A stretch of 34,760 bases of DNA, taken from NCBI GenBank assembly GCA_020852855.1, contig JADZAA010000032.1, forward strand, positions 1-34,760. The letters run 5' to 3'. The notes under the pieces were generated by a model, which saw only the letters and a program-made list of their open reading frames with translations, ran no database searches and had not been told where the DNA came from. The position numbers were made by a program, and so were the translations under genes. Positions 6,784-31,205 of this stretch are shown here, in pieces. Source of the stretch: Bacteroidota bacterium (GTDB taxonomy: Bacteria > Bacteroidota > Ignavibacteria > Kapaibacteriales > UBA961). Position 1 is the first letter of the stretch. Each line of letters starts with the position of its first letter.

Positions 6784-8310
6784 TTATTGTTGATTAACGC
6801 CGAACTGCCGTGTGGCAGATGAAAAATAATTTGTCCAATGTTCACGGCCCAAAGGCTCGTGCCCCGCTGCAAGAGCTGTCAGCACATCGTCGACATATTC
6901 GGTTGTTCTTGCGCCGACGAGTGCGGAGGTTACGCCTTCGGTAGCCATAACCGATTGCAATGCAATTTGTGTAAAAGGTAATTCCGTATATTTTTCGCCG
7001 AAACTTTCGGCAGATGCCCGCCTTATTACGGCCGGAACAGAAATATCAACCGCATATCTCGAGCCTATTGTACCCCACATAAACCGCAAAGAGTCTGTAT
7101 AGCGCGGCAACCATTGTTGCAGGTCATAATTATCTATTTGTTGCAATATATTTAACGCTTCTATTGCGCGTGGCTCCAATTGCTCGGCTAATACCGGTTG
7201 CCAGCCGGAGAAAGACGAAATGGCATTAACAAGCCGCCGCGTTGCCTGCCCGGCCGAAAGCAGTATGCGAAATCGAATAGCAATATCCGGTAATAGTTGA
7301 AGTTGCGGAGAAATCGTATTGAAAAACTCTTGCTCGATATTTGCAACATTGTTAATCAAGGCATCAATTTCCACGCTTGACGGGCTATTTTGAGCGGTTG
7401 CCTGCGTAGTCAGCCGCACTATTGCAGAGTCGCCGGAAAGTGCGTTCAAAGGACGGTTTGCCAATACGGAAATGCCGGATTTCTGCGCGTATTCAAATAC
7501 AGAAAGCGAATCGTTTTCCTGATTTTTATTGTATGCTGCACCTGTTTCCAATAGATTGAAGGGCAATTGAACAAAGCGAAAATGATGGTCGTTTCCCGCT
7601 ACGTCTTTGGCTATATTCAAACATTCTTCCAACGAACAAAATTGCAGATGTGCCGACGGATAGCCGAAAGTATTGGAAGAAATTCCGTACCACGATATTT
7701 TTGCCGAAGCTACAGCTTTTTCGCAATATTCGAAAGCGCGCCGAATCCTCCGATAAAATTCTTCTCGCATATCTGTTGCCGATACGCCCGAAGCCTGCGC
7801 CCATACAAAATAGGATTCCGGGTTATGCAACAGAAATATATTGATATGCAGGAGATTAAGCCTGTCCAAGGATTGATTGAGTTGTTCGGCGAGAAAAAAC
7901 GGATGTATGCTGTGCCATGCATTGTCGTCCAATTTAACAATTCCCGGTATGCGCTTACATTCGTGTTCGCCGCGCTTGGCATCTTCGAGAATACCGCCTT
8001 CGATATAGCCGGCCTTGGTTATAAGAACTATTTCGTCTGCCGAGATTTTATTCTCGTTGGCAAGGTCTTCGAGTACGCTACCGATTAGTATTTCGCTGTC
8101 TCCGAATGCGTAACAGCTTGCCGTGTCTATTAGATTTATTCCCGACAAAACGGCTTTTCTCAAAGCTTGCTCGTGTACTTCAATGCCTATCGCTGTACGA
8201 TATGTGCCAAATCCTGCACGAGAAACAGTTTCGCCGGTCGGCAGTTTGCAATAATAATTTTGCGGGAATTGTTTTGCATATTCCGCTGTAGCTTGTTCTG
8301 CAGTTCGCAT
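6784..8310 (-). CDS. Aldo/keto reductase with a long internal insertion
   Basis: 508 aa from the first ATG (8310); the ORF track starts two codons earlier at a TTG. NAD(P)H-linked oxidoreductase of the AKR TIM-barrel family. The full catalytic tetrad is visible: Asp62 and Tyr67 in IDTASCYAFG, Lys99 in LITKAGY and His162 in FLLHNPE. WYGISSN and the late VTSALVGARTTEYVDDVL block, which binds the cofactor phosphate, are also present. Typical AKRs are about 280-340 aa. Here some 130 residues of mainly helical sequence (about 298-428) are inserted between the LANRPLNAL strand and the last cofactor-binding part. Substrate is unknown. It is the last gene of a tight unit: 20 bp separate it from the DUF1207-like gene upstream. 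Confidence 0.86.
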   Translation of the reverse strand: MRTAEQATAEYAKQFPQNYYCKLPTGETVSRAGFGTYRTAIGIEVHEQALRKAVLSGINLIDTASCYAFGDSEILIGSVLEDLANENKISADEIVLITKAGYIEGGILEDAKRGEHECKRIPGIVKLDDNAWHSIHPFFLAEQLNQSLDRLNLLHINIFLLHNPESYFVWAQASGVSATDMREEFYRRIRRAFEYCEKAVASAKISWYGISSNTFGYPSAHLQFCSLEECLNIAKDVAGNDHHFRFVQLPFNLLETGAAYNKNQENDSLSVFEYAQKSGISVLANRPLNALSGDSAIVRLTTQATAQNSPSSVEIDALINNVANIEQEFFNTISPQLQLLPDIAIRFRILLSAGQATRRLVNAISSFSGWQPVLAEQLEPRAIEALNILQQIDNYDLQQWLPRYTDSLRFMWGTIGSRYAVDISVPAVIRRASAESFGEKYTELPFTQIALQSVMATEGVTSALVGARTTEYVDDVLTALAAGHEPLGREHWTNYFSSATRQFGVNQQ

Positions 8311-8330
8311 TTCCAAATTTCTATTTTTTT

Positions 8331-9146
8331 CTAAAATTGCGTTTGAAAACCTAATGCGAGATATTCGTCCCGCTCCCGAAAAAACATTCCGTGTATGTTG
8401 CGTCCGCCAAAATAATAGAGATTGAGTGAAATTCCTCTGTCAGGCGAAGTTTTCAGCGCGATTCCGGCTTGCGCTGAATACATCGGCACGTAAGCCCCGT
8501 CTATACCGATTAGTTTGGCATCGCAACCGCCTTGAAATTCAAATAAACCGGATAGCGGACAATGCAAATCCGCACCGGCTTGCGGTATAAACGGTTCTGC
8601 CGAACGAGGTTGCCGCGAATAAACATAAGAAATTCCGCAGTATAATCGCGCACCGTTTTTTAGAGCCGCAAAAGTCAAATCGAAAAATTCTCGACTGTAT
8701 ACAAAAGGTTGCTTTTCGGTGAAATGTCCGGCCGAATCGGCCAAGCCATCAACCAAATGCGACGATATATGTGCTACGCGGAATCGTGTCGCCCCTGTCC
8801 AATCATTCCCGATTGGTGCAAGTGCCGAACTGTTTACGCCGAAATAATAATCGGAAGTTTCAACAGGAAATTTGAAATTTCCTTCGCTTCGCAATCGGGT
8901 ATAAGTAAAAAAATCGGCACCGGCCGAGCATTGCAAAGATTCGGCGGGCGAGAATCTGTACAAATCCGATGTATTTCCTATATCGAGCCGCAGTTTTTCC
9001 TTGCCGAATTGCGTCATTGCACCGACGCGCCCTTCGTAAGGATTCGCCGTAAGCGGTTTAAAAAGAATATCGCCGTAGCAATAAGCCACATTCGGAATAA
9101 ACGGTACAAAAAGAAAAAATATGTAAAAAATAGGAGCAAGTCTCAC
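8331..9146 (-). CDS. DUF1207-like exported protein
   Basis: 271 aa. It begins with a hydrophobic signal peptide (MRLAPIFYIFFLFVPFIPNVAYC). The rest alternates polar and hydrophobic residues with many aromatic ends (for example LYCGISYVYSRQ, LNLYYFGG) and finishes in a terminal Phe, as outer-membrane beta-barrels do. The segment WTGATRFRVAHISSHLVDG resembles the RxxHxSSHxxDE block that characterises DUF1207 proteins, and the gap to AKR is short. The start is GTG, in a 4-nt GTGA overlap with the upstream HisA-like gene, and GGAG sits 8 nt before it. DUF1207 has no agreed function. Placement in the outer membrane is inference; the family assignment is moderate. Confidence 0.72.
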   Translation of the reverse strand: MRLAPIFYIFFLFVPFIPNVAYCYGDILFKPLTANPYEGRVGAMTQFGKEKLRLDIGNTSDLYRFSPAESLQCSAGADFFTYTRLRSEGNFKFPVETSDYYFGVNSSALAPIGNDWTGATRFRVAHISSHLVDGLADSAGHFTEKQPFVYSREFFDLTFAALKNGARLYCGISYVYSRQPRSAEPFIPQAGADLHCPLSGLFEFQGGCDAKLIGIDGAYVPMYSAQAGIALKTSPDRGISLNLYYFGGRNIHGMFFRERDEYLALGFQTQF

Positions 9147-9913
9147 TGCGTATGCTCCAAAAGTTCCGGCTCGAGTTCGGCCTCAATTTGCCGCCAAATT
9201 TTCTGACAAGGAAAGCGGTTTTCGTAGAGTGCGCGTCCTACTATCACGGAATCTACGCCTTCGCGTTGCAATTCCTGCAATTTCCAAAGTTGCTCCGGTC
9301 CGGCCACTCCGCCGGCTGCGGTAACGCGCATTTTAGATGTACGGGCTATGTCGGTCAATATATTGTAGTCTGGTCCGCAAAGGGTTCCTTCCCATGAAAT
9401 ATCGGTATAAACTAATCTTTGAATACCGAGCGATTTGGCTGTAAGTGCAAATTCCACATCGCCGATATCGCATCGTAAATCGGGAAAAACAACGCGGCGA
9501 TTATAGGCACGTATGCCCAAAATTATGCGACTTGCCGTATATTCTTTGATGAGTTCGCGCACGCCTTCCGGATTGGTCAGAACAAGTTGGCTGATAATTA
9601 CACGATAAACGCCGGATTCCAGCCAACGACGGCACATATCGGTAGTCGGATAATACGACAGTAACTGCACGGGAATATCTACGGCGCGAATAAGATCCTT
9701 GATAGTTTCGGCATTATATCTGCTATGTCCTTCTTGCAATGCGTCGTGGTCGGTAATATGAATGGATTTTGCATTCTCGCGCCGCCATAGCCGGGCCAGA
9801 TCCGACGGGTTTACCGAAATCAATGTGTATAAAGTTTCGGTGCCGGGCTCGCCTATAATGCAACGCGCACAATGGCCGTGTTCGATATCTATTGCCGGAA
9901 TGATAAGCAACAT
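9143..9913 (-). CDS. HisA-like TIM-barrel protein lacking key catalytic motifs
   Basis: 256 aa, collinear over its length with HisA (phosphoribosylformimino-AICAR-phosphate isomerase). Retained features: IPAIDI with Asp9, YTDISWEGTLCGP with Thr170 and Asp171, AAGGV (199-203) and IVGRALYE (224-231). Lost features: the first phosphate-binding block, normally QVGGGIR, reads QLLSYYP (83-89), and the second catalytic Asp of the GLDARDG block is Arg135 in GIRAYNRRV. A working isomerase normally needs both acids, so ordinary histidine biosynthesis is unlikely. No other his gene is near. It sits 17 bp after a glycosyltransferase gene and overlaps the next gene by 4 nt. A recruited TIM barrel with a different ligand, or a non-catalytic paralogue, is the best reading (inference). 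Confidence 0.8.
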   Translation of the reverse strand: MLLIIPAIDIEHGHCARCIIGEPGTETLYTLISVNPSDLARLWRRENAKSIHITDHDALQEGHSRYNAETIKDLIRAVDIPVQLLSYYPTTDMCRRWLESGVYRVIISQLVLTNPEGVRELIKEYTASRIILGIRAYNRRVVFPDLRCDIGDVEFALTAKSLGIQRLVYTDISWEGTLCGPDYNILTDIARTSKMRVTAAGGVAGPEQLWKLQELQREGVDSVIVGRALYENRFPCQKIWRQIEAELEPELLEHTQ

Positions 9914-9930: not shown

Positions 9931-10923
9931 TTACTGTTTCGTAGACGAATATCCGCCGCTAATAGCGGAAGAAAACCGCTTCTCGAAGTATTCTGCTTCG
10001 GCAAGGTTCACCAAGCACGACATTTTGACCGTCGGTTGTGAAAGATGCTCGGTAGCCTCGGTAAAACGTCCGTTCAATCCGAGCAACAATCCTTTGACGT
10101 ACAGTCTGAAACCTTCCGTTGCGGCCGACGAGCAGCCGAACTCAAGCATTTTTGCCGCTTTATCGTTATCGCCGAGAGCAATGGCCGACTGTGCGGCCCT
10201 TATGCGGGAAATCTCGCGTTGTTCGTCGGAGAGCTCAACCGAATCGGCGATAGAACGCAGAATCTTGGCGGCACGCTCGTGGCGTTTGGCGGCGAACAAA
10301 GCCATTCCCAGATGATGCATCAGCCATACATCGTTCGGTTTTTCGCGCAATTCTTCTTCGAGCAGGCGAATATTCCGTGCCGTGCGCTCGTCGTTGTCGG
10401 GCGCGGCATAGCCGTAATGCCGTATAACAAGCGGCAAGTCTGCCACATCGAATCCTGCGGCGCGAATTGCAGGAGCGATTTGTTCGTGGATACGTCCTTC
10501 GTAGCGAATAGTGCCGCGATTACGGAACAGCCGCGTAAAACGATGCTCAGCACTTGTTCCATTCTGTAATTCGTTGATAATTCTTACTGTTGCCCCGCCT
10601 GTTTGCGCATCGGAAATTATATCGGAAATCGAAGCAATGTCTGCATCAGCAACTTCTTCGTCCGCATCTAATTGTAATATCCACTCTGTTCGTGCGGCAC
10701 TCAAAGCGTAATTTCGCGACTCGGAAAAATCATCGCACCACTTATGGAAATGCACTTCCGCACCCATTGCGGCAGCGATTTGCGGCGTAGCGTCAAGCGA
10801 GCCTGTGTCCACCACGACTATATGTCGCGCAAAGTTCCTAACAGAGTTGAGTGCGCATCCGATATTAGAAGCAGCGTTGCGGGCTATCATTGTTACGCCG
10901 ATGTCGAGTTGTGAAGCAGACAT
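9931..10923 (-). CDS. GT2 glycosyltransferase with helical-repeat C-terminus
   Basis: 330 aa from the ATG at 10923; the ORF track starts five codons earlier at a TTG. The N-terminal ~200 residues are a GT-A fold glycosyltransferase of family 2: IGVTMIARNAASNIGCALNSV, then HIVVVDTGSLDATPQIA, then the DxD-like LQLDADEEVAD that binds nucleotide-sugar and metal. The C-terminal ~130 residues (PNDVWLMHHLGMALFAAKRHERAAKIL...) read as TPR-like helical pairs. Such GT2-TPR proteins transfer sugars to proteins or envelope glycans in the cytoplasm; the acceptor here is unknown. It is the first gene of a four-gene unit and a TATATTTGC promoter-like motif lies about 70 bp upstream. No clear Shine-Dalgarno sequence is seen. 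Confidence 0.87.
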   Translation of the reverse strand: MSASQLDIGVTMIARNAASNIGCALNSVRNFARHIVVVDTGSLDATPQIAAAMGAEVHFHKWCDDFSESRNYALSAARTEWILQLDADEEVADADIASISDIISDAQTGGATVRIINELQNGTSAEHRFTRLFRNRGTIRYEGRIHEQIAPAIRAAGFDVADLPLVIRHYGYAAPDNDERTARNIRLLEEELREKPNDVWLMHHLGMALFAAKRHERAAKILRSIADSVELSDEQREISRIRAAQSAIALGDNDKAAKMLEFGCSSAATEGFRLYVKGLLLGLNGRFTEATEHLSQPTVKMSCLVNLAEAEYFEKRFSSAISGGYSSTKQ

Positions 10924-10991
10924 TGGGCGGCAAGGCAAATCTTACGCCCGAAAACTATGGTTTTCGGATAAATTTCATAAAAAATATGCGG

Positions 10992-27938: not shown

Positions 27939-30900
27939 TTAAGGCCCAGGGCAAACTTTCATTATGAAGCCAACATAAATAAACTCCGGAATATTATCTT
28001 CGCTCGAAGTTCCTACGCTGGTCGCATCGTCGGTTGTGCCACTACCGGAGATATCGTTAAGATTTACGCTTACATCGGAACTATTGCCACTAAACGTATG
28101 AGTATGGCCGGGATCGGTAATATTAACATCAACACTTGTTGAATAATTAGAGGTTTCATCGCCACTAAGATCGCTACCGCTTTGAAGTGCTCCGCTTGCT
28201 GAAATACCTGTTGTTGCATTATCTATAGTTCCGCTGAACGATGCCGTACCCTCAATGGTACTACCTGTACCGCCACTAAAGCTGAAACTATGCGAATGGC
28301 CATCAACTGTATGCGAGTGAGTATTACTTCCACCGGGCGTTCCTACACTGGCCGGCGTTGTGGTGTCACGTGGGAATCGGTCATTTAGATCGGGAGTGCC
28401 ATTATTGCCGTCGCATAATGCCCAGCCGCTTGGCACATTGCCAATATCTCCCGTCCACATCACTATAGAGCCGCAAGGCAGGGCGGCGTTTATAGCGTCA
28501 TCAGTTTCCGTCTTTGTGTAATAATTATTGAGCGTAGTCGTTAGGCTACTGCTTGTAACGTAGTCTGCGAGCGTAGTTGAAAGGCTACTGTTTGTAACGT
28601 AGTCTGCGAGCGTAGTTGAAAGGCTGCTGATTGTAACGTAATCGTTAATATCAAACGAAGTATTGATAATAGGTTCGGAAGCCGTGCCCGTAATGCTAAT
28701 GCCTGTGCCGGCAGTTACACTTTGTACTCCGGGGCTCGGTGCATTAATCCATTCAAGGTCGGCAGTAGTTCTACCGCCGCTGCTTTGTACATTATTCGCG
28801 CTTAATATTTGCCCGCCGGTAGGTGCGGCTTTCGGTAAAGCATACATGAAATTACCCGTAAGTCCGGTAGCCGGTGCCACAAAACCTGCATAGTTGGTAG
28901 CCATCGGAAAATCATCGTCATCGTCATCATGATGTGAAGTATAAAAGCGTAATTCGCGAGGTTTACTGTCATTATTTGCCAGCCATAAGTCCACATTTCC
29001 AAGTACAGCGGTATTATCGGCAGTAATTGTCATTGATTCGTAGTTATGTCCGTCTGTAGACGCTCCGAGAAAGCCCATGGAACTGTTTCCGATTAGGGTG
29101 AGGTTACTTCCGCCGAGAATAGAGGAGTTCCGTCCATTATCTCCATCAACATCTCCGATTGTATTATCGCTTCCCCCCAAGATAGAAGCGGAATTGCCCC
29201 GAATTGTGTTATTAAGACCGCCTGCGATAGTAGCATACTGTTCATATATGCTATTCATAGAGCCGCCGCCTATGGTTGAGAAACGGGATATAACAGTATT
29301 GTCTTCACCACCGGCTATTACCGAATTAGCTGCAAAAACGTCGACGTCTACGTCTCCTATCGTATTGCCGCTTCCGCCGCCGATAAAGGAATATGGTACA
29401 TGGCTGCCTGCTATTGAGTTATCTTCTCCGCCCGCGATAGTGGAATTATAGCCGCCGCCCATTTCACCCGAAAAGGAGCTGTGAATAAAGTTACCCTGCC
29501 CACCGCCTATGGTGCTGCCGTTCACATAGGATCCGAGGATTGAATTACTTATACCGCCTGCTATTGTTGCGCCGTAGCCACTATTAAATTCATAGCCGTC
29601 GTTGCTAGTTATAGCATTACCGGTTCCGCCTCCTATAACCGAGTAATCTCCTCCGGCTACCCTAAATGCCTCTTCATCGTCTGTTGTACCAATTTGCCAA
29701 TCAATGGCATTATATCCTCGAGGGTCACCCAATTTAGAAGCTTGTAATGCACCGCCTTCGCTTGGAATAAGTGCTATGCTGTGATACATCCACTGGTCGT
29801 TAATGCAAGTATTTATGCTTATAGGTACTATGCCATTGGTTACATCTTCGAGAATGAGCGCGCCTTGTTGGATTTGCGTACCTGATGTATTGCCAAAACG
29901 TACAAAAGCATTTTGACATACGGGCGACGGAATTGTAGTTACGCCGTTTCCGCCTCCGCCTTCGCTCCATACAACGTCTGTACCGTTGAAAGTGATTACA
30001 TCTCCGGCAACCGCACCGGTAGTCCAGATTTTCTTTCCTGTAACATTACGGTCAAAAATTTTGGGTGTTGTAACTGCATTATCGGCTATGTCAATCGTTC
30101 TAATTGTTCCGTCAATTATATTGTCGGTGGATACGGAATTATCCGCAAGTTTAGGATTAGTAACCGCGTTATTGGCCAATTTGGGCGATGTAACGGCATT
30201 GTCGGCGAGTTTAGGACTTGTAACCGCACCGTCTAATAATTTAATGGAAGATACAGCGCCGTCAGCGAGTTTTGGTGTGGTAACGTTCAAATCGCGGATT
30301 TTTTCTGTCATTACGGCATTGGTTGCGATGATTTGCGTTTGAACCGCATTATCGGCCAAGTTGGCCGTCGTTATGGTTTTATCGGCAATTTTGGCAGTTG
30401 TAACGGCATCATTTGCAATGAGTTGTGTTGTAATGGCGTTATTGGCGATATTCGATGAAACAATAGTTCCATTTGCAATTTTAGCACCTGTAACGGCATC
30501 ATTGACAATTTTTAAGGTAGTAATTGCCGAGTTTGCGATTTTTGCTCCGGTAACAGCATTATCGGCGATTTTTGATGTAGTAACTTTACCGTTGCCGATT
30601 GTTGGGCTCGGGTATGTTCCCGATAAATCGCCTCCGGCCGAACCTGTGGGCGGTACAAGTATATCGTCGCCGTTTTTAAGTGAATTTTTATCGAATTCCA
30701 AGCGGAATATACCGCCGTCATTATTTACTTTGATACCGTTGGAGCCTACTATTGAGAGATCGCCGTCTTCTCCGTTAATCGAGGTTACTGCCCCCGTTGC
30801 AAAAGGTGCCAGCGAGCGTGCCTGCTCCGCTTGCATCGAGTACGGCACGGAAACGAGTGGAACGCGGCTGATTTCGGGCTTTCCGTCAATGCTTATACCT

Positions 30901-31205
30901 ATATAATAGGGCTGGTCAAACGACAGCGAAAGCGATGTTTTATTGCCGACTATGATATTAAACAAACCATCTTCTATGGTCGCGCTATGCTCTTCGCTCC
31001 AAATGGATTTGGCGGCGTTAGGCGCGTCGTAAAGCCTTACGGTAATTGTATGAACTCCGCTATACGGCTTGCCGCTTATTGCGTCGGTTAATGTTCCTTG
31101 ATAGGAAAATTGACGCGGAATTTGCCCCAATGAAGGAACAACGGCGATAGTCAGGGCGGCTAATGCAATAGCAGATCCTGCCAGAATAGAGGTAAAATAC
31201 TTCAT
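27939..31205 (-). CDS. Large exported repeat protein with phage tail-fibre architecture
   Basis: 1088 aa. A signal peptide (MKYFTSILAGSAIALAALTIAVVPSLGQ) is followed by a beta domain at about 30-130 (RQFSYQGTLTDAISGKPYSG...). Residues about 211-390 hold 18 decapeptide repeats of the type KIADNAVTTP. Residues about 519-710 hold about ten S-x-I-x-G-G-x-x-N-x-I units, which suggest a beta-roll or beta-helix head. Three 13-residue repeats (DYVTxSSLSTTLA, 856-894) and YYTKTETDDAI look like a trimeric stalk. GSIVMWTGDIGNVPSGWALCDGNNGTPDLNDRF (912-944) is a tail-collar-like domain. HxH motifs at 963-965, 970-972 and 1034-1036 recall metal-binding fibre tips such as T4 gp37. There is no T9SS tail. 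It is probably a surface adhesin (inference). Confidence 0.88.
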   Translation of the reverse strand: MKYFTSILAGSAIALAALTIAVVPSLGQIPRQFSYQGTLTDAISGKPYSGVHTITVRLYDAPNAAKSIWSEEHSATIEDGLFNIIVGNKTSLSLSFDQPYYIGISIDGKPEISRVPLVSVPYSMQAEQARSLAPFATGAVTSINGEDGDLSIVGSNGIKVNNDGGIFRLEFDKNSLKNGDDILVPPTGSAGGDLSGTYPSPTIGNGKVTTSKIADNAVTGAKIANSAITTLKIVNDAVTGAKIANGTIVSSNIANNAITTQLIANDAVTTAKIADKTITTANLADNAVQTQIIATNAVMTEKIRDLNVTTPKLADGAVSSIKLLDGAVTSPKLADNAVTSPKLANNAVTNPKLADNSVSTDNIIDGTIRTIDIADNAVTTPKIFDRNVTGKKIWTTGAVAGDVITFNGTDVVWSEGGGGNGVTTIPSPVCQNAFVRFGNTSGTQIQQGALILEDVTNGIVPISINTCINDQWMYHSIALIPSEGGALQASKLGDPRGYNAIDWQIGTTDDEEAFRVAGGDYSVIGGGTGNAITSNDGYEFNSGYGATIAGGISNSILGSYVNGSTIGGGQGNFIHSSFSGEMGGGYNSTIAGGEDNSIAGSHVPYSFIGGGSGNTIGDVDVDVFAANSVIAGGEDNTVISRFSTIGGGSMNSIYEQYATIAGGLNNTIRGNSASILGGSDNTIGDVDGDNGRNSSILGGSNLTLIGNSSMGFLGASTDGHNYESMTITADNTAVLGNVDLWLANNDSKPRELRFYTSHHDDDDDDFPMATNYAGFVAPATGLTGNFMYALPKAAPTGGQILSANNVQSSGGRTTADLEWINAPSPGVQSVTAGTGISITGTASEPIINTSFDINDYVTISSLSTTLADYVTNSSLSTTLADYVTSSSLTTTLNNYYTKTETDDAINAALPCGSIVMWTGDIGNVPSGWALCDGNNGTPDLNDRFPRDTTTPASVGTPGGSNTHSHTVDGHSHSFSFSGGTGSTIEGTASFSGTIDNATTGISASGALQSGSDLSGDETSNYSTSVDVNITDPGHTHTFSGNSSDVSVNLNDISGSGTTDDATSVGTSSEDNIPEFIYVGFIMKVCPGP
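30036..30575 (-). repeat. 30-bp coding repeat array (18 decapeptide units)
   Basis: This DNA encodes residues 211-390 of the tail-fibre-like protein. The period is exactly 30 bp with consensus protein KIADNAVTTP or KLADNAVTSP. Copies are diverged at the DNA level, with the most alike units toward the lower coordinates. Confidence 0.88.

Follow-up and report, generated by a model that had tools for sequence, protein, structure and literature searches.

The window (the whole stretch of DNA analysed here, 34,760 nt in length) carries on its reverse strand a gene, here called X, whose intact open reading frame encodes a 256-amino acid protein of the HisA type. The features needed below are as follows:

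9931–10938, reverse strand: gene upstream of X, encoding a glycosyltransferase-2 (GT2) protein with TPR repeats (Pfam)
9143–9913, reverse strand: X, encoding an orphan HisA-derived (beta-alpha)8 protein of 256 amino acids (PF00977, 148.7 bits; AlphaFold2 model)
9770–9784, reverse strand: N-face motif RRENA, residues 44–48, with R44, E46 and N47 invariant (alignment)
9647–9679, reverse strand: DIPVQLLSYYP, residues 79–89, in which L85–P89 replace the GGGIR phosphate-binding loop (alignments)
9509–9511, reverse strand: codon for Arg135, which replaces catalytic Asp127 (alignments)
9182–9223, reverse strand: C-terminal signature, residues 231–244, ENRFPCQKIWRQIE, at the start of helix 8 (invariant residues)
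8331–9146, reverse strand: downstream gene, encoding a DUF1207 protein (Pfam, ORF reading)

An earlier note, made by eye from the sequence, had likened X to HisA along its length, and this is borne out: the Pfam match spans residues 4–234, nearly the whole protein, and HisA and PriA are its nearest solved relatives by sequence. The AlphaFold2 model (mean pLDDT 94.5, pTM 0.91, with 72 aligned relatives as input) has Mycobacterium tuberculosis PriA and other HisA-type enzymes as its nearest folds, at TM-scores of about 0.75–0.85. Pfam score and model agree on a HisA-related (beta-alpha)8 fold. Among NCBIfam models the HisA equivalog TIGR00007 is the top match, but at 148.9 bits X lies well below its cut-off of 228.95, and the scores against the HisF, AglZ and WbuZ models (32.7, 39.1 and 35.0 bits) are all below theirs (294.6, 310 and 299.7).

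Genes around X

Only 17 nt separate the GT2 gene from X, and the two are therefore possibly co-transcribed; among 90 neighbourhoods compared, the pair recurs in L072 and L073. On the other side, the GTG start of the DUF1207 gene and the TGA stop of X share 4 nt (GTGA), an arrangement suggestive of translational coupling. The top NCBIfam match of the GT2 product is the SunS peptide S-glycosyltransferase, but its 72.5 bits fall far short of the 350 required. Elsewhere in the window, positions 6784–8316 encode a 510-amino acid protein with an aldo/keto reductase domain at residues 46–291 and no Pfam match in the C-terminal remainder, whilst positions 27939–31205 encode an apparently secreted protein of 1088 amino acids that has numerous near-repeats (KIADNAVT-like, then GG-N-I-like) and an end rich in His, Ser and Gly; by its sequence it resembles a protein of the fibre or adhesin type.

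In other lineages X keeps different company. The ruvA gene directly precedes it in most Kapabacteria families, with 26 of the 29 measured gaps under 60 nt, and the family to which the window belongs (f1) is without this linkage. Kapabacterial loci L080–L119 often have nuoG-nuoH-nuoI after X, and some have ftsA-ftsZ. In two families of Ignavibacteria (f12 and f17), the gene for a cNMP-binding protein follows X by 4–29 nt and is itself followed by one for a universal stress protein (Usp). A tight set of X, a stand-alone cNMP-binding domain and a universal stress protein is seen at L183–L212 (for example L204, L186 and L190), in about 19 genomes, and is possibly a signalling unit. Neighbours were dropped as a guide to function: ruvA, cNMP-binding protein with Usp, purE/pfkB and GT2/DUF1207 disagree between lineages. 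No conserved metabolic neighbour was found across the compared neighbourhoods, and the gene context of X, compared across lineages, points to no partner.

An altered active site without a pathway

Aligned with Thermotoga maritima HisA, X has LSYYP at residues 85–89 in place of GGGIR, and Arg135 where HisA ends beta-5 with its catalytic Asp (Asp127 in the T. maritima numbering); Asp9, Thr170–Asp171, the GGV turn (GG201–202) and VGRALYE are kept. Both losses had been read correctly from the sequence beforehand, and both extend to the relatives. The GGG of the phosphate loop, near-universal in canonical HisA, is gone in all 36 Kapabacteria orthologues. Position 135 is Arg in 28 of these and Asp in none, the equivalent residue being Asp in 38 of 38 canonical HisA proteins and in 11 of 11 HisA proteins of the FPCQ type with an intact site. 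The loop-5 Trp of HisA is likewise lost in Kapabacteria X.

What X keeps is less firmly held by its relatives. The residues listed as retained are indeed present in X, where Asp9 and Thr170 stand for the first catalytic Asp (Asp8) and Thr164 of HisA, and Asp9 and Asp171 for the beta-1 and beta-6 catalytic Asp of PRA isomerases of the SubTrpF/PriA type; these are not, however, fixed in the 36 orthologues. The Asp9 column holds 22 D, 13 E and 1 K, that of Thr170 15 T and 10 S with the remainder other residues, and that of Asp171 25 D and 9 E. Nor do the orthologues share a QLLSYYP-like sequence, which the earlier note had named as support for a new role: only the start (DIP, then Q or E) is well kept. 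Among 31 core Kapabacteria, R17, D55, D57, R135, W174, E175, G176, G180, D182, GG201–202, G226 and R227 are each at least 90% conserved, R135 and W174 being new relative to HisA, and 15 catalytic-face positions are near-invariant.

The host genome, very probably that of a member of the Kapabacteria, comprises 2.8 Mb in 138 contigs and is 99.2% complete. Apart from X, a search of it with PF00977 returned only a 25-bit partial match in a 352-amino acid frame, and thus neither a second hisA nor hisF; family searches found no hisD, no TrpC (PF00218) and no TrpF (PF00697). That no his genes adjoin X, as previously remarked, is borne out by ORF and Pfam reading. X had been called a paralogue, and a second, intact hisA proposed as a check; the check came out negative, and in its own genome X is an orphan and not a paralogue.

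The same holds widely. Most of the genomes are metagenome assemblies, in which a single absence is weak evidence; the pattern, however, spans dozens of genomes, most of them more than 90% complete, with no hisD in 34 of the 36 aligned genomes of Kapabacteria or in 51 of the 61 genomes of the order. The ten with hisD are eight genomes of one family (f8), where HisA and HisF give strong matches and X was not found, and two (G022 and G042) that have X plus a separate canonical HisA beside HisF. Members of f8 also encode a third strong His_biosynth protein besides HisA and HisF (L068, at G055:C205:8784–9437, and like matches; about 220 bits over profile positions 10–222). Among Ignavibacteria, X is kept without hisD in eight genomes (G064, G069, G112, G183, G190, G216, G220 and G224), and many that have hisD carry X alongside a separate canonical HisA. 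Because defining features of HisA were tested and found to be lacking, X should not be filed as HisA, and the annotation 'HisA' in Kapabacteria and many Ignavibacteria is not evidence of histidine synthesis.

Origin of X and shift of constraint

A scan of one genome per bacterial or archaeal species gave 396 relatives of the X type, the best 80 of which belong, by their record titles, to Kapabacteria, Ignavibacteria and Rhodothermia-like lineages. A tree of 111 sequences places Kapabacteria X in a single clade (SH-aLRT 100) nested in a group of HisA proteins with the FPCQxxW signature at the start of helix 8. Six rows with long branches, three being diverged Kapabacteria X, are left out of this tree; with them the groups are mixed, and without them the Kapabacteria clade and the canonical group are clean. 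Frames of X are intact throughout the order, and close, unsaturated pairs give dN/dS values of 0.05–0.17, indicating strongly purifying selection. With both losses clade-wide, Arg in place of the catalytic Asp in 28 of the 36 orthologues and purifying selection this strong, X is a conserved family and not a decaying one, which supports the earlier suggestion of a new ligand or a non-catalytic role.

Eight Rhodothermia-like genomes and two families of Ignavibacteria (f14 and f15) encode members of the FPCQ group in which GGGIR, the Asp and the loop-5 Trp are all intact. In four genomes (G097, G148, G115 and G215), this protein is encoded between hisH and hisF with hisB nearby, and in the first two hisI follows hisF and is followed by purE or pfkB (the his genes were recognised by eye from sequence, purE and pfkB confirmed by Pfam on related loci). 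Other Ignavibacteria have lost these his genes, and there purE and/or pfkB lie directly after X. A simple reading would be that the his operon was deleted around one retained gene. FPCQxxW was considered as a mark of new function and rejected, since it is also present in those HisA proteins of this lineage that are encoded in his operons and have their site intact.

The strongest conservation in Kapabacteria X lies elsewhere in the barrel. F234, C236, Q237, W240, R241 and E244 of helix 8 are invariant in all 36 orthologues, and R104, R166 and D221 too are invariant even in the most diverged. To quantify this, the protein was divided by the secondary structure of the model into a catalytic face (strand ends and beta-alpha loops), an N-face (alpha-beta loops and strand starts) and, as separate classes, helix 8 and the remainder, and mean column entropy was expressed relative to the protein average. 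For the catalytic face and N-face, respectively, the values are 0.66 and 1.28 in canonical HisA, 0.70 and 1.04 in intact-site FPCQ HisA, 0.91 and 0.89 in Ignavibacteria X and 1.05 and 0.73 in Kapabacteria X (N-face permutation P 0.0002), on a split that is partly post hoc, having been set up after the list of invariant residues was seen, so that only the check with G212 and G182 below is independent. Constraint has thus moved from the catalytic face in canonical HisA to the N-terminal face and helix 8 in Kapabacteria X.

The independent check comes from two FPCQ proteins of other lineages, first taken for canonical HisA, that have degenerated separately. That of G182 has lost Asp127 and the beta-6 Thr-Asp, and in that of G212 GGGIR is missing along with other residues of the pocket, yet both keep R44, N47, P81, R166, D221, F234, C236, Q237 and W240. 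Both genomes (loci L223 and L230, respectively) carry hisD. The earlier note had missed that the opposite barrel face and helix 8 are the most conserved parts of X, and that X descends from an operon-borne hisA lineage.

Possible roles of X and related systems

HisA kinship, the absence of the pathway, retention, strong purifying selection and the shift of constraint are shown by the sequences themselves. Beyond this, we think the chances about even that X derives from HisA and is retained to bind a partner in some role other than histidine synthesis, with a pocket that is either re-tuned or a vestige. The ancestral lineage would have been a normal ProFAR isomerase encoded in his operons, with a clade-specific surface made up of the N-face and the FPCQxxW helix 8. 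Kapabacteria and many Ignavibacteria would then have lost the his genes around X and kept X alone, presumably for a second role that it already held or had gained. In Kapabacteria, the ProFAR site (GGGIR loop, Asp127 and loop-5 Trp) would have been dismantled while hardly anything changed in the N-face or helix 8. That surface, we infer, is an interface for a conserved partner, with X acting as a scaffold or regulatory subunit. The core Kapabacteria pocket has probably been re-tuned and not emptied, as Arg17, Arg135, Asp55/57, WEG174–176 and the C-terminal phosphate site are kept; a small anion, probably one with a single phosphate, would fit it as a ligand and may, as an effector, control the interaction.

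The chief rival, which we consider doubtful if well short of negligible, takes the pocket as the point of the protein. X would be a new enzyme or a ligand sensor for a small monophosphorylated compound, bound by the C-terminal phosphate site, Arg17, Arg135, Asp55/Asp57, the WEG loop and Asp/Glu9, and the N-face would be only structural; its residues could indeed form a charged plug in the barrel floor and not an interface. The pocket set conserved in the 31 core Kapabacteria, the 15 near-invariant catalytic-face positions and the complete, high-confidence barrel of the model all fit. As a whole, however, the catalytic face is not conserved beyond the average for the protein (ratio 1.02–1.05), there is no conserved metabolic neighbour in the loci compared, and five diverged Kapabacteria (G024, G031, G038, G043 and G057), like G212 and G182, have lost many pocket residues whilst keeping nearly all of the N-face and helix 8. 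Because these diverged and parallel cases lose the pocket and keep the surface, we prefer partner binding to new pocket chemistry, although both can hold together.

The remaining explanations fare far worse. Retention of a HisA-type protein after his loss has a precedent in SubTrpF of Actinomyces, a working PRA isomerase in which the Arg for the second phosphate and the loop-5 Trp are gone (eLife 2017, PMC5404923), the same regions being lost in X, and X might similarly be a TrpF-only relic in which PRA isomerisation has outlived ProFAR isomerisation. We rejected this very improbable reading on the missing trpC and trpF of the host: full-length TrpC matches in the order are confined to the f8 genomes, where X was not found, leaving no product-using enzyme where X occurs, and four X-bearing genomes (G021, G024, G029 and G036) have a PF00697 protein of their own. 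It is more improbable still that X functions as HisA despite its unusual residues, the his genes of its genome having escaped detection; TIGR00007 is its top model and Asp9 and Thr170 are in place, but the score is far under the cut-off, GGGIR and Asp127 are lost, most of the order lacks hisD, and G022 and G042, which have it, hold their separate HisA. The missing pathways exclude histidine and tryptophan roles for X. Just as hard to credit is the idea that X is a relic in decay, with selection weak or absent; loss of the his pathway and of catalytic residues would fit, but intact frames across the order, the low dN/dS and residues invariant in 36 genomes do not.

The partner-binding reading can be taken further, to an enzyme of central metabolism turned round, its catalytic face abandoned and the opposite face fixed to make a scaffold or regulator, with the surface for the second role already present in the catalytic ancestor. 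We put this forward tentatively, as rather less than an even bet. If true, a scaffold or regulator would be present in most families of an order, kept past loss of the histidine pathway. The proteins also make up a traceable series: first a HisA whose site is intact and whose gene lies in its operon, then the product of a lone gene that retains part of the site, and last a protein in which the HisA site is gone. With this series one can ask whether the second function preceded pathway loss. A search of open-licence full text found no publication on the X family.

How X stands to known systems can be set out as follows. It shares with HisA (TIGR00007/PF00977) its fold, length, near full-length alignment, Asp9, Thr170–Asp171 and C-terminal phosphate site, and nests in a lineage that is operon-borne in relatives; it differs in lacking the GGGIR loop, Asp127 and loop-5 Trp, in scoring under the family cut-off and in a host genome where no histidine pathway was found. 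AglZ/HisF2 and WbuZ, involved in surface-sugar modification, likewise belong to the His_biosynth-fold superfamily and act outside histidine biosynthesis, but X scores only 39 and 35 bits against cut-offs of 310 and 300. The PriA homologue AdeK, encoded in nucleoside-antibiotic clusters, is another HisA/PriA-type protein recruited outside histidine biosynthesis; it keeps detectable HisA activity (Microb Genom 2026, PMC13055916), whereas X has lost HisA residues and no biosynthetic cluster is seen around it. PriA, SubTrpF and SubHisA2 of the Actinomycetaceae, known from Actinomyces, are HisA-type isomerases retained and altered after loss of his and trp genes (PMC5404923). X, too, is a HisA-type protein retained and changed after his loss, but unlike SubTrpF it has Arg for the beta-5 Asp and no trp pathway, and its constraint has moved to the other face of the barrel.
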